From: Aminobacterium sp. MB27-C1 | GTDB lineage: Bacteria > Synergistota > Synergistia > Synergistales > Aminobacteriaceae | Assembly (NCBI RefSeq): GCF_030908405.1 | Contig: NZ_CP133089.1 | Location: forward strand, 2,170,001 to 2,234,000 | DNA: 64,000 nucleotides | Reading direction: 5' to 3' | Part shown: piece by piece, positions 4,972-9,163 of the stretch | How positions within the stretch are numbered: position 1 is the stretch's first letter | How the letters are laid out: each line of letters begins with the position of its first letter | Notes under the pieces: model-generated | The model's input: only the letters and a program-made list of their open reading frames with translations | The model's database searches: none | Told to the model about the DNA's origin: nothing | Made by a program: the position numbers and the translations under genes

Positions 4972-5817
4972 TTACTTTTTCTCTATAATTTCTACCTTAT
5001 ATTCTTTGCGAAGACGCTCTGTTTCTTCAAGATATATTTTAGAACGTTTATCTTTAAGAATGTTAGCCTCTATCTGACCTTTCACGTCTTCAAAAGACTT
5101 TAACGAAGCAGGCTTTTTATCTTCAAGCCTGATAATGTGCCACCCAAACTGGCTCTGTACAGGAGCACTTATTTCGCCCTTTTTAAGGGCTTCTGTAGCT
5201 TTACTGAATTCAGGAACAACTTGATCACCTTGGAAATAACCTAAATCTCCCTTTTGTTGTTTTGAAGGGCAAGTTGAATACTTTTCAACGGCCTCTTCAA
5301 AAGAAAGCTTCTTTGTCTCTATCTCTTCTCGAATCTTTTTTGCTTCCTCTTCGCTTGCCACTAAAATATGGCTTGCTCTCATCTGTGCAGGGATATTAAA
5401 TTCTGTCAGATGCACAGCGTAATAATCTTTTGCTTCTTTTTCCGTTACGGCAGCTTTACTCAGCATCTTCTCCACGGCAGTCTGACGCAGTAACTCCCTT
5501 TTTATATTCTCAAGGCGCTCCATAAATACAGGATCTTTTTCAAGGTTATTATCCTTGGCCCAACGAGCAAAAACTTCGAGATTGATCAACTCGTCTAATA
5601 TAGCCTTACGTCCTTGCTCATTCTCGTAGTACATGCGCTGCTGAGGATCAAGAGAGTTGATTATATCGTCAACATTCTGTTCTTTTATCTCTACATCGCC
5701 TACCCGAGCCAATACGTTGTTCTTTTCATTTTTCGCTTCTTGAGCTCCCGCCATGCTTCCCCAAGCCATCATCACTATGACAGCCATTACACATAAAACT
5801 CTCATATTTTTTTTCAT
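4972..5817 (-). CDS. parvulin-type peptidyl-prolyl isomerase, exported (PrsA/SurA-like)
   Basis: Exported folding helper. The start is ATG 5817 with GGAGGG upstream; it gives 281 residues beginning MKKNMRVLCVMAVIVMMAWG, a signal peptide cleaved near AGA-QEA. Residues about 25-150 form a SurA_N-like chaperone region. A PpiC domain follows, with MRASHILVASEEEAKKI, the CPSKQQKGDLGYF turn and FGWHIIRLEDKKP. No lipobox is seen. It is the last gene of the serine-dehydratase operon and is followed by a hairpin. Confidence 0.85.
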   Translation of the reverse strand: MKKNMRVLCVMAVIVMMAWGSMAGAQEAKNEKNNVLARVGDVEIKEQNVDDIINSLDPQQRMYYENEQGRKAILDELINLEVFARWAKDNNLEKDPVFMERLENIKRELLRQTAVEKMLSKAAVTEKEAKDYYAVHLTEFNIPAQMRASHILVASEEEAKKIREEIETKKLSFEEAVEKYSTCPSKQQKGDLGYFQGDQVVPEFSKATEALKKGEISAPVQSQFGWHIIRLEDKKPASLKSFEDVKGQIEANILKDKRSKIYLEETERLRKEYKVEIIEKK

Positions 5818-5863
5818 ACATATCCCTCCAAACCATACGATGCACTGAAACGTTGCCAGTGTA

Positions 5864-7393
5864 TCACAGGCTCTCATCGTCGTCATTCAACAAAGACGAA
5901 AGAAAACATACTACATCTTCAGCTTGCATTTCCTTTGCATCTTCACCATAGTGAACTTCCACTATTCCTTCTGCCGCTTTGCGTCCTACAACGACTTTGA
6001 CAGGAATTCCGAAAAGTTCAAAATCAGCGAATTTTGCCCCCGCTCGTTCATTCCTATCATCAAAAAGGACAACAATCCCATTTTGTGCCATCTCCAGATA
6101 AAGATTGGTAGCCAGGTTCATTGCCACTTCATCTTTCACCGACGGAACAATAATATCTACATCGAATGGCGCCAAACCAAAGGGATATGTTTTCTCTCGT
6201 GCCAGAGCTGTTAGGATACTGTTAAGATCGATCCAGCCTTTCCATAATGTGCATTTCTCGGTTTGTCCCTGTTGATCCTGGTAAGGGATCCCCTCAATGT
6301 CACTCTTTTCGCTCCATACTGCTGCTACTTTGTTCCATAAAAAAGGTTGAAGCTCAAGCCCACAACGTGGACAATTCATTCCTTCACGAAGAAGAGCAAC
6401 ATCACCAATATGCTTTGTTTTAAAATCTCTTCCCCACGTAACTCCTGTGAGGTGATAGTTGGGTTTATTAGCTCCCGTAACAACACCGCTACATCCTTCT
6501 ATACTTATATCAGCGACTAGACAAACTCTTTCAGGAAGTCCTACAGGGCCAAGATAACCTGGTTTCTGCCCCATTACCGACATGAGTTCGTTCTCTTCTG
6601 CTATTCGAACCTTCTTGACCTTTAAAAAGAGAGCCAGCTTTTCTTCACTTATATGCAGATCTCCTCGAATAAGCACTGCTACAGGTCTCCAGCCATCATC
6701 AACTTCAGCCATATAAAACATGGTCTTTACTGTTTGTTCAGCAGGAATATGCAAAAATTCGCATAGTTCTTCTATAGAACTTGCATTTGGGGTATGAATT
6801 TCTTGCCGAACCATCTCTTTCTCTGTTCGATAAGGTTTGCTTTGTTCTATTCGTGCATTTTCAGTACCCGTCCAGCCACACGATGAGCAGGCAACTCCAT
6901 TTTCGACTGCAATATACTGATCTGAAGCCTTCAAAGCAACGTAACTTCCGTCAGTACCCAACGTTTCATCGCTCATAACGATGCTTGGAAGATTTAAATT
7001 TTGTAATATGTTATCTATAGTATGAACTATCTCCTGTTGCGCCTCTTTGCCAGAAGCAGTCTCTATTCCTCCTAGAAGAAGCAAACCTTGCCGAAGCTCC
7101 ATAAAGTTCAGAGGCAAATCTCGATAACTTTGTACTGCACGTTGGGCAAGGGCATATAAGCCATCTTTCTTGTAAAGGAGAGAGTCAAGTTGTTGAAAAT
7201 TTTCTTCCATTAACGCATGCAGAAAGGTCCAAGCAACATTTTCTCGCAATATGGAGCCAAGAGGCAGCAAGTTCCACTCTTCATTTTGAAAATCCAGGGC
7301 ATACCCACTTCTAATGAGACGAATAACACCTGGATCTTGCCAACCAGCTGGTGCTTTTTTTAATGTCGGCGTAAGCAAAGAAGTCATTTTCAT
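5864..7393 (-). CDS. prolyl-tRNA-synthetase-like protein with degraded catalytic core and intact editing domain
   Basis: 509 residues colinear with bacterial ProRS. The N-terminus resembles the family start (TSLLTPTLKKAPA). The expected class II motif 2 (FRDEIRPR...EF.MKDAYSF) is replaced by LRQGLLLLGGIETASGKEA at 100-118, and motif 3 (GIGRT) by GWIDLNSILTALAREKT at 386-402, so the ATP-binding arginines are absent. By contrast the INS/YbaK editing domain (about 185-345) keeps TVKT (Lys223), RGD, GPVG (282-285), GAN (307-309) and His314. Zinc-type cysteine pairs (169/172, 341/344) and the anticodon-binding domain (about 412-509) are intact. Aminoacylation looks impossible; trans-editing of mischarged tRNA(Pro) is the inference. 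A true proS should exist elsewhere. ATG 7393 follows GGGAGG. Confidence 0.8.
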   Translation of the reverse strand: MKMTSLLTPTLKKAPAGWQDPGVIRLIRSGYALDFQNEEWNLLPLGSILRENVAWTFLHALMEENFQQLDSLLYKKDGLYALAQRAVQSYRDLPLNFMELRQGLLLLGGIETASGKEAQQEIVHTIDNILQNLNLPSIVMSDETLGTDGSYVALKASDQYIAVENGVACSSCGWTGTENARIEQSKPYRTEKEMVRQEIHTPNASSIEELCEFLHIPAEQTVKTMFYMAEVDDGWRPVAVLIRGDLHISEEKLALFLKVKKVRIAEENELMSVMGQKPGYLGPVGLPERVCLVADISIEGCSGVVTGANKPNYHLTGVTWGRDFKTKHIGDVALLREGMNCPRCGLELQPFLWNKVAAVWSEKSDIEGIPYQDQQGQTEKCTLWKGWIDLNSILTALAREKTYPFGLAPFDVDIIVPSVKDEVAMNLATNLYLEMAQNGIVVLFDDRNERAGAKFADFELFGIPVKVVVGRKAAEGIVEVHYGEDAKEMQAEDVVCFLSSLLNDDDESL

Positions 7394-7431: not shown

Positions 7432-7605
7432 TTAATCCATAAAATATTGACTGTAAGCCAATATGAAAAGAGCAACCGCCCAAACAATATCAAGCATAGC
7501 ACGGCCAGTCTGCCCCATACGAAATCGCCGAAAAGAGATAAAAAGCAGGGCTACACCACATAAAATTACAATTATAGGAGCAAGCGTAGTAGCAAAAAAT
7601 TGCAT
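7432..7605 (-). CDS. 57-residue membrane protein of unknown function
   Basis: Two hydrophobic segments (LAPIIVILCGVALLFISF and LDIVWAVALFILAYSQYFM) are separated by a basic loop RRFRMGQTGR, so both ends probably face outward. AAGGTGG lies eight bases before ATG 7605; an upstream in-frame GTG at 7617 has no proper spacing. It starts five bases after the serine dehydratase alpha stop and sits within the operon. No family was recognised. Confidence 0.7.
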   Translation of the reverse strand: MQFFATTLAPIIVILCGVALLFISFRRFRMGQTGRAMLDIVWAVALFILAYSQYFMD

Positions 7606-7610
7606 AAGGG

Positions 7611-8480
7611 CTACCACCTTTCATGAAGGATTTCTGCCACAAGACGACGTGCAGTAGGAGTAATAGCTAAGCCGCCATGAGCAGTCTCTCGTAAAGATTC
7701 TGGCAGAGCACGTCCCACCTGAGCCATGGCATCAATAACTTCGTCAGCAGGAATAATAGATTTTATCCCTGCTAGAGCCATATCTGCCGCAAGAGCCGCC
7801 ACCGAAACAAGAAGTCCATTTCTCTTAATACATGGAGATTCTACTAAGCCTCCCACAGGATCGCAGACAAGTCCAAGCACTGATTTAAAAGTGAGAGCAA
7901 CGCTTTGTTCTATAGCTTCAGAAATACCTCCATGCATAGCAACCAAAGCGGCAGCTCCCATAGCCGCTGCGGCTCCACATTCAGCCTGACATCCACCTTC
8001 TGCTCCAGCCAACGTTGCTCTAGATGCTATAACAGACCCGATAGATCCGGCAACAATCAATCCGTCAAGAAGTGTCTTATCCTGCGTGGCAAAGATATCT
8101 TTATGGGCAAAAAGAAGCCCTGGCAAAATACCACAGCTTCCGGCAGTAGGAGCTGCAACAATACGCCCCATAGCTGCATTATATGTTGCTACCGCCAATG
8201 CAATCTCACTCGCTCGCAATATATATTGGCCTGAAAGATTCTTTTCTTTCTGAGCATACGAAGCTAATTTTCCTCGATCAGATCGAACTATTTTGCCATT
8301 CCATTCATGTTCAAGGGCATCGTGAACAGATTTTTCCATATCAACAAGACGGCTTTTCATCCTTTCACGAATGCGATCGACTGGAAGGCCTGTCTCTTGT
8401 TCCTCCTGCGACAAAACAACTTCAACAAAAGAGCTCTTTTGATTCAAGCTCTGGGCAACAAGTTCAGAAATAGACCTCAT
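7611..8480 (-). CDS. sdaAA: L-serine dehydratase, iron-sulfur type, alpha subunit
   Basis: Deaminates L-serine to pyruvate and ammonia using a [4Fe-4S] cluster. The 289 residues carry the APTAGSCGILPG motif near residue 110, the GGCQAECGAAAAMGAAALV stretch near 160 and SPCIKRN near 215, which together provide the cluster cysteines. It overlaps the beta-subunit gene (ATGA). The two-gene form is usual in Firmicutes-like anaerobes and central to amino-acid fermentation. Confidence 0.93.
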   Translation of the reverse strand: MRSISELVAQSLNQKSSFVEVVLSQEEQETGLPVDRIRERMKSRLVDMEKSVHDALEHEWNGKIVRSDRGKLASYAQKEKNLSGQYILRASEIALAVATYNAAMGRIVAAPTAGSCGILPGLLFAHKDIFATQDKTLLDGLIVAGSIGSVIASRATLAGAEGGCQAECGAAAAMGAAALVAMHGGISEAIEQSVALTFKSVLGLVCDPVGGLVESPCIKRNGLLVSVAALAADMALAGIKSIIPADEVIDAMAQVGRALPESLRETAHGGLAITPTARRLVAEILHERW

Positions 8481-9163
8481 TCTATGTTACCTCCCTGGTT
8501 ATAGAGAGCTAGGACTCGTTCCATTGATGGATGAGCCTTTTCTACGGCTTCTCTGACACTCTCATCGGGAGATGTCGGTAAATCCAATTCGATAACAAGA
8601 GAAGCTTTGCCACCTTTTGATTTTCTATGGAGACTTAATGTTGCAATATTAATTTTCATATCGGCAAAAAGTTTTGTAACAGCAGCTACAACCCCCTGAG
8701 TATCACGATGAAACGTTATGAGAGAGGGAAGCTCTCCAGAAACACTAACCTGAAAGCCATCTATCTGTTGTAATTCTACGGCCCCTCCTCCAATAGACGC
8801 ACCTATAATCTCTAGAGTTCGACCGTCTTTACCTGTAAAGACAAATCGAGCTGAGTTTGGATGGGCTCCATCTATATTTTCAGTATCGAAACGATAGTTA
8901 AATCCTCTTTCTTTTGCAATAGACAAAGCATCCCGCAAACGAATATCATCAGGAGCCATGTCGAGGAGTCCCGCAACAAGAGCCCTATCTGTACCATGAC
9001 CGTAACTTGTGTATGCAAAACTGCCCCTTAAAAAAATTTCAACACTCTCTAAAGGATCGTCTCCCCAGCAAGCCAAAGCCAACCGGCTTAAACGAGCCGC
9101 GCCTGCAGTATGGCTCGAAGAAGGCCCTATCATTACAGGGCCTATAATATCTGTAAGTGCCAT
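8477..9163 (-). CDS. sdaAB: L-serine dehydratase, iron-sulfur type, beta subunit
   Basis: 228 residues: an N-terminal domain with the diagnostic IGPVMIGPSSSHTAGAARL, and a C-terminal ACT domain (LITFHRDTQGVVAAVTKLFADMKINIATLSLHRKSKGG) that may sense serine. AAGGAGG lies seven bases before ATG 9163. It starts 13 bases after the deaminase gene and overlaps sdaAA by four bases. Confidence 0.93.
   Translation of the reverse strand: MALTDIIGPVMIGPSSSHTAGAARLSRLALACWGDDPLESVEIFLRGSFAYTSYGHGTDRALVAGLLDMAPDDIRLRDALSIAKERGFNYRFDTENIDGAHPNSARFVFTGKDGRTLEIIGASIGGGAVELQQIDGFQVSVSGELPSLITFHRDTQGVVAAVTKLFADMKINIATLSLHRKSKGGKASLVIELDLPTSPDESVREAVEKAHPSMERVLALYNQGGNIE

Follow-up and report, generated by a model that had tools for sequence, protein, structure and literature searches.

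The gene on the minus strand at positions 5864 to 7393 of the window (the whole 64,000-nucleotide stretch of the Aminobacterium sp. MB27-C1 genome analysed here) encodes a protein that resembles a prolyl-tRNA synthetase (ProRS) whose synthetic core has decayed, which raises the question of what the protein is and what it may be kept for. A preliminary description of the locus had proposed a stand-alone editor that clears mischarged tRNAPro by means of an intact editing (INS) domain and ProRS's own anticodon-binding domain. The features of the locus are collected in Table 1, and we refer to the protein as the relic.

Table 1. The relic gene, its domains and key sites, and its neighbours. Positions are those of the window; column counts refer to invariant alignment columns as defined in the text.
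Feature	Position	Strand	Basis
ProRS-derived trans-editor candidate (relic), 509 aa	5864..7393	-	ORF, Pfam tRNA_edit and HGTP_anticodon, fold match to 2j3l
N-terminal class II core remnant, residues 1-195; 12/92 invariant columns kept	6809..7393	-	
Site of motif 2 loop deletion, between residues 99 and 100	7094..7099	-	Alignment gap, 66/66 homologues
INS editing domain, residues 196-332; 19/21 invariant columns kept	6398..6808	-	Pfam and column count
INS lysine codon (TVKT, residue 223)	6725..6727	-	66/66 homologues; aligns with E. faecalis ProRS lysine
INS histidine 314 codon (GAN....H)	6452..6454	-	66/66 homologues
C-terminal core remnant, residues 333-403; 8/32 invariant columns kept	6185..6397	-	
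Former motif 3: LWKGWIDLN here, GCYGIGVGR in true ProRS	6218..6247	-	Alignment
Anticodon-binding domain, residues 404-500; 13/17 invariant columns kept	5894..6184	-	Pfam, columns, dN
PpiC-type peptidyl-prolyl isomerase, downstream neighbour	4972..5886	-	ORF, Pfam, conserved order
L-serine dehydratase alpha, upstream neighbour	7611..8480	-	Family match; order in two other genomes of the genus
Serine dehydratase beta-like ORF (presumably; named by position), neighbour	8477..9163	-	ORF, conserved order

The open reading frame begins with an ATG, and the upstream sequence places a GGAGG-like site 5' of this start. A Pfam scan of the product returns tRNA_edit (residues 201-323, E 1.5e-24) and HGTP_anticodon (residues 412-484, E 1.1e-11), both above cut-off, and no match to the class II synthetase core family tRNA-synt_2b. 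Against TIGR00409, the NCBIfam model of family II ProRS, the relic scores 148.8 bits where the cut-off is 306.7, and the alignment begins at INS with nothing before it. Among PDB entries, E. faecalis ProRS (2j3l) is the closest to it by sequence (E 7.7e-47), almost the whole score coming from shortly before INS onward. An AlphaFold2 model, computed from the relic of the window and 20 relatives, has a mean pLDDT of 87.1 and a pTM of 0.82. Overlaid on ProRS, a check that the preliminary description had suggested, the predicted fold matches 2j3l along its length with TM-scores of 0.82 (query) and 0.75 (target) at 23% identity. A split or frameshifted true proS was considered and rejected, as the frame has no internal stop and the complete genome holds no family II ProRS above cut-off.

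To compare the synthetic core, five true ProRSs from the same phylum were aligned with the relic and 65 other homologues. The relic lacks the motif 2 segment FRDEIRPRFG through a deletion, and motif 2, with its ATP-binding arginine and RPR loop, is absent from all 66 proteins. The preliminary description had noted missing arginines at this site; the loss is in fact greater, since the whole loop is deleted and not mutated. Its observation that motif 3 lacks the GIGR element also holds, as a different segment stands in place of the GIGxxR pattern (Table 1). About 35 residues downstream of motif 1 are missing as well, and the N-terminal core remnant shares 19% identity with the true ProRSs of the phylum. 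When columns at least 97% invariant among 69 true ProRSs are counted, those that the relic keeps lie mainly in INS and the anticodon-binding domain, with few in the core on either side of INS. Cysteines 169, 172, 341 and 344 are present in most homologues and probably form a structural zinc site. Judged by these losses, the ATP- and proline-binding core of the relic is destroyed.

Within INS, the TVKT lysine 223, GPVG, GAN and histidine 314 are all present, and the lysine, the histidine and the GPV proline occur in 66 of 66 homologues. The relic thus has the INS fold with a conserved lysine (PF04073 above cut-off) that marks the trans-editors of the INS superfamily; the single-domain build that also marks them is lacking, the relic being multidomain. 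We take lysine 223 to correspond to K279 of E. coli ProRS. Excerpts of PMC3973320 describe the K279A variant of the E. coli enzyme as editing-defective. The anticodon-binding domain carries the sequence DDRNERAGAKF, and both domains are intact, as the preliminary description had judged. Because the same pattern recurs in all 66 fetched homologues and is accompanied by a predicted ProRS-like fold, it is not a product of chance, and at the level of sequence the relic is confirmed as a bacterial-type ProRS homologue with a lost synthetic core and intact INS and anticodon-binding domains.

Charging of tRNAPro falls to a separate enzyme. The genome is a single contig of 2,427,830 bases and encodes, at 1933205-1934626, a full-length family I (archaeal/eukaryotic-type) ProRS that scores 550.7 bits against a cut-off of 437; inspected by eye, its class II motifs are intact and it has no INS. 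A profile search of this complete genome found no family II ProRS above cut-off. The preliminary description would have been refuted had the relic been the only proS in the genome, and it is not. Three tRNAPro genes were located by a pattern scan and ARAGORN, and all three, read by eye, have C1:G72, A73 and G35/G36. INS-type genes number two, that of the relic and one for a 162-residue protein. The best PDB match of the latter is 2cx5, a structure that excerpts of PMC11295145 assign to ProXp-x. YbaK was not found in the genome, this ProXp-x-type protein being the sole other INS protein, and a ProXp-ala profile gave no match at E 1e-20.

Relic-like matches occur in 73 of 185 genomes of the phylum Synergistota. 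True family II ProRSs account for five of these, in families f11 and f12; no other genome of the phylum has a match above the family II cut-off, and the best family I scores in the same five genomes are weak, with none above cut-off. Of the 180 genomes of one order, 68 carry the relic itself, across eight families. Family I ProRS exceeds its cut-off in 155 of the 185 genomes, some of the remainder being fragmentary. Residue counts given here refer to 66 relics, that of the window and 65 others, and exclude the fragmentary G110, G130 and G143, which are nevertheless counted among the 68. A scan of named genomes returned relatives in Synergistota (Thermovirga, Acetomicrobium, Synergistaceae). 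Among the best 80 of 450 such relatives, all 16 that lack motifs 2 and 3 belong to Synergistota, and the other 64 keep both motifs and include none from this phylum; on these best 80 of 450, a spread of relics beyond Synergistota was rejected, though rare ones may exist elsewhere. In a tree of 55 proteins, including 37 of the 66 relics and 13 of the 64 non-Synergistota ProRSs, the relics form one clade (support 100/100) separate from all true ProRSs. One genome, G119, carries two paralogues: L027 retains much of the ProRS-like anticodon motif, and L060, which sits in the other branch of the relic tree, has a degenerate one. No description of a relic-type protein was found in openly licensed PMC papers.

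What the retained domains may do together can be framed by work on E. coli ProRS, whose INS editing, according to excerpts of PMC3973320, needs G35/G36 read through the anticodon-binding domain and not the acceptor stem; by the same excerpts, ProXp-ala reads G72/A73 and YbaK alone reads nothing. Retention in the relic is concentrated in the two modules that ProRS editing needs on this account. The RPR sequence conserved in bacterial ProRS sits in motif 2, and the motif 2 loop is the acceptor-stem reader (excerpts of PMC12152171). Its loss would leave editing unharmed, since INS editing in E. coli is independent of the acceptor stem. We propose that the family II ProRS was retired once charging had passed to an archaeal-type (family I) ProRS, and that it was kept as a trans-editor. 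The anticodon-binding domain would grip G35/G36 of tRNAPro, the CCA end would thereby reach INS, and INS would remove by hydrolysis the amino acid wrongly attached by the family I enzyme, most likely Ala. We consider it likely that the relic edits mischarged tRNAPro in trans using its own anticodon-binding domain, with Ala as the likeliest target. The stand-alone editor of the preliminary description gains support from the retention in INS and the anticodon-binding domain and from the separate INS-less ProRS.

The same architecture and action could be sustained by a substrate other than Ala: Cys- or Ser-tRNAPro, or tRNAPro charged with a non-protein amino acid. The genome lacks YbaK and so has no other known Cys-tRNAPro editor, and INS-like domains often take several amino acids (excerpts of PMC11295145). 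However, INS of the parental bacterial ProRS is described as Ala-specific in excerpts of PMC3973320 and its invariant columns are kept in the relic, and YbaK is present in other relic genomes (e.g. G179, G021 and G017). We regard a non-Ala substrate as unlikely.

The distribution of ProXp-ala, a single-domain protein with its own best PDB match in 5vxb, bears on the same point. Using motifs and matches to references, we assigned 87 loci whose INS is free-standing or embedded to ProXp-ala, YbaK or ProXp-x. A ProXp-ala profile was run against 185 genomes, with matches at E <= 1e-50 called strong (57 genomes). Of the 68 relic genomes, 7 have strong ProXp-ala, against 50 of the 112 genomes of the order that have no relic (Fisher p 1e-6, with kinship ignored); adding seven weaker matches gives 12 of 68 versus 52 of 112. 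At genus level, five genera have both proteins, 21 the relic only, 19 ProXp-ala only and 13 neither (p 0.003, kinship again ignored). By family, ProXp-ala is present in 0/3 relic genomes versus 39/78 relic-less genomes of f1, in 1/32 versus 10/20 of f8 and in 5/12 versus 1/2 of f6, and in none of the 13 genomes of the window genus and f10; G119, with its two relics, does carry it. The co-occurrence in f6 counts against the proposed reading, as does the possibility, raised in excerpts of PMC11295145, that ProXp-x, also present in the genome of the window, has some Ala-tRNAPro activity. A kinship-corrected test used a proxy tree of 87 of the 180 genomes of the order, hand-chosen and built from the family I ProRS, which is not a neutral marker. 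Its result was not significant (nine independent pairs: 1.1 same, 2.6 opposite, 5.3 no difference; median p 1), with the direction as expected, opposite outnumbering same. The anticorrelation is therefore no more than suggestive. Neither protein was found in 62 of the 112 relic-less genomes, which can thus do without Ala editing by the two.

Several further observations concern INS proteins in the phylum. No INS-type domain at all was found in 15 of 185 genomes, including G081 (99% complete); since G060, G061, G063, G074, G080 and G081 are at least 96% complete, tRNAPro editing by the INS family can be lost. A ProXp-ala gene directly adjoins family I proS in two relic-less genomes of the same family (G078:C2:306404-308339 and G067:C9:5868-7834), possibly as an operon of synthetase and editor. 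Several genomes, relic-bearing ones among them, have weaker ProXp-ala-like hits that form a divergent subgroup (E 1e-23 to 1e-33; e.g. G126, G130, G166 and G134), and one free-standing INS protein (L200, in G184) has motifs that match none of the three types.

Purifying selection on the relic is evident: both dN and dS were measurable in 15 of 19 pairs, and in these the whole-protein dN/dS ranges from 0.04 to 0.44 (the other four comprise two saturated pairs, one identical pair and one with a dN of 0). The fate of the anticodon-binding domain differs between lineages. It is the most conserved and slowest-evolving relic domain in the window genus (82% identity to G030, versus 63% for INS), whereas in family f6 it can be the least conserved (dN 0.109 versus 0.010 for INS in the pair L062/L063). 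The region is present in 36 of 66 relics, and the other 30, all of family f8, end before it. Both the E and the K of the NERxGxK motif are kept in all 13 relics of the window genus and family f10; among the other 23 relics with the region, six keep the K and the E is mostly replaced. Since the domain is degenerate in families f2 and f4-f6 and gone in f8, it is unnecessary for the function of those versions. The INS lysine and histidine persist in 66 of 66 relics, including those without the domain. The role that the preliminary description gave to the anticodon-binding domain fits Aminobacterium, where the domain is kept, but does not extend to family f8, which has since lost it.

Around the relic, the order of serine dehydratase genes, relic and PpiC, all on the same strand, recurs in two other genomes of the genus, and its neighbours had no match at the other 52 relic loci compared. 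The true start of the PpiC-type ORF is probably internal, at a signal peptide. A short hydrophobic ORF of about 56 aa, noticed by eye, lies on the minus strand at approximately 7433-7604, between serine dehydratase alpha and the relic. A promoter and terminator scan of the locus found no excess over shuffled sequences. Excerpts of PMC3035294 describe A. colombiense as a fermenter of serine, glycine and threonine that oxidises alanine syntrophically. The neighbourhood is a functional hint of an amino-acid-fermenting life and of nothing beyond that; that high alanine would favour mischarging is speculation.

Other roles can be weighed against these data. The relic might be no independent enzyme but an accessory subunit, either to the family I ProRS or within a ProRS-EF-Tu assembly, that binds ProRS and tRNA together as YbaK does. 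The class II frame persists in the predicted fold, although the catalytic residues were lost long ago, and f8 versions retain it in sequence without an anticodon-binding domain; the relic is, however, unlinked to family I proS in its own genome, some 240 kb away, and we regard such a role as improbable. HisZ and Gcn2 provide analogies for a role in sensing tRNA or in regulation that involves no hydrolysis. Binding of this kind would account for the intact anticodon-binding domain, and the conserved gene order with serine dehydratase genes would suit a regulator, but the INS lysine, histidine and GPV proline are kept 66/66 even where the anticodon-binding domain is lost, so that the editing site is the only one left there to select, and we hold this role to be very improbable. 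That the gene is a decaying pseudogene of the replaced ProRS, as the destroyed core, the progressive loss of the anticodon-binding domain in other lineages and the absence of the relic from 112 of 180 genomes of the order might suggest, is scarcely credible given a frame open in all 66 fetched copies, persistence across eight families, dN/dS values well below one and a retention strongly uneven by domain.

If the relic is a trans-editor, the ProRS displaced in an ancestor of the order would have become the proofreader of its own replacement. We lean towards this view, and towards the order recording a stepwise shrinkage to a smaller editor, in which the anticodon-binding domain would pass from intact (Aminobacterium, and f10 with Thermovirga) through degenerate (f2, f4-f6) to lost (f8).

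Family II (P-type) ProRSs such as 2j3l are homologous to the relic over its whole length, with INS and the anticodon-binding domain conserved; unlike them, the relic has neither motif 2 nor motif 3, scores below the family cut-off and is accompanied by a separate charging ProRS. Alphaproteobacterial ProRS of the 2i4l type charges without INS and depends on trans-editing. The two situations are alike in having a charging synthetase without INS, but in alphaproteobacteria the synthetase lost INS, whereas here the old synthetase would have lost synthesis and a foreign ProRS taken over. With ProXp-ala, YbaK and ProXp-x the relic shares the conserved lysine and, as proposed from its sequence, INS-type editing in trans beside an INS-less ProRS. 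Those proteins are described as single-domain in excerpts of PMC11295145, whereas the relic is multidomain and has an anticodon reader.

ThrRS-ed, a free-standing threonyl editor of some archaea, offers a precedent. It is a synthetase paralogue that edits in trans beside a separate synthetase without an editing domain (excerpts of PMC11295145 and PMC7373986), as the relic is proposed to do, and like the relic it joins an editing domain to an anticodon-binding domain (PMC11295145, in excerpt). Features of the ThrRS-ed type are found here, namely editing and anticodon-binding domains, no functional core, and a separate charging synthetase without an editing domain. Unlike ThrRS-ed, which is archaeal, has a DTD-like editing fold and acts on tRNAThr, the relic has INS (PF04073), would serve another tRNA and still contains the degenerate class II core. 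It may best be called a protein that works like ThrRS-ed and is built from ProRS, the editing domains not being homologous. The preliminary description had set the relic apart from known free-standing editors; this distinction stands for single-domain YbaK and ProXp but not for ThrRS-ed, which has an anticodon-binding domain according to excerpts of PMC11295145.

For annotation, the risk is that relic genes are taken for a second proline--tRNA ligase. For the biology of the family, one order contains a synthetase without charging and, as proposed, with editing, in which the anticodon reader is present, waning or lost by lineage. Control of the INS editing site by anticodon contact about 70 Å away is presented as an open question in excerpts of PMC3973320, and the relics make it directly testable, with no synthetic site to complicate the assay. 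If the proposal is true, the relic would be the first INS-family trans-editor to carry an anticodon reader of its own, and it would offer a visible route from cis-editing domains to free-standing editors.
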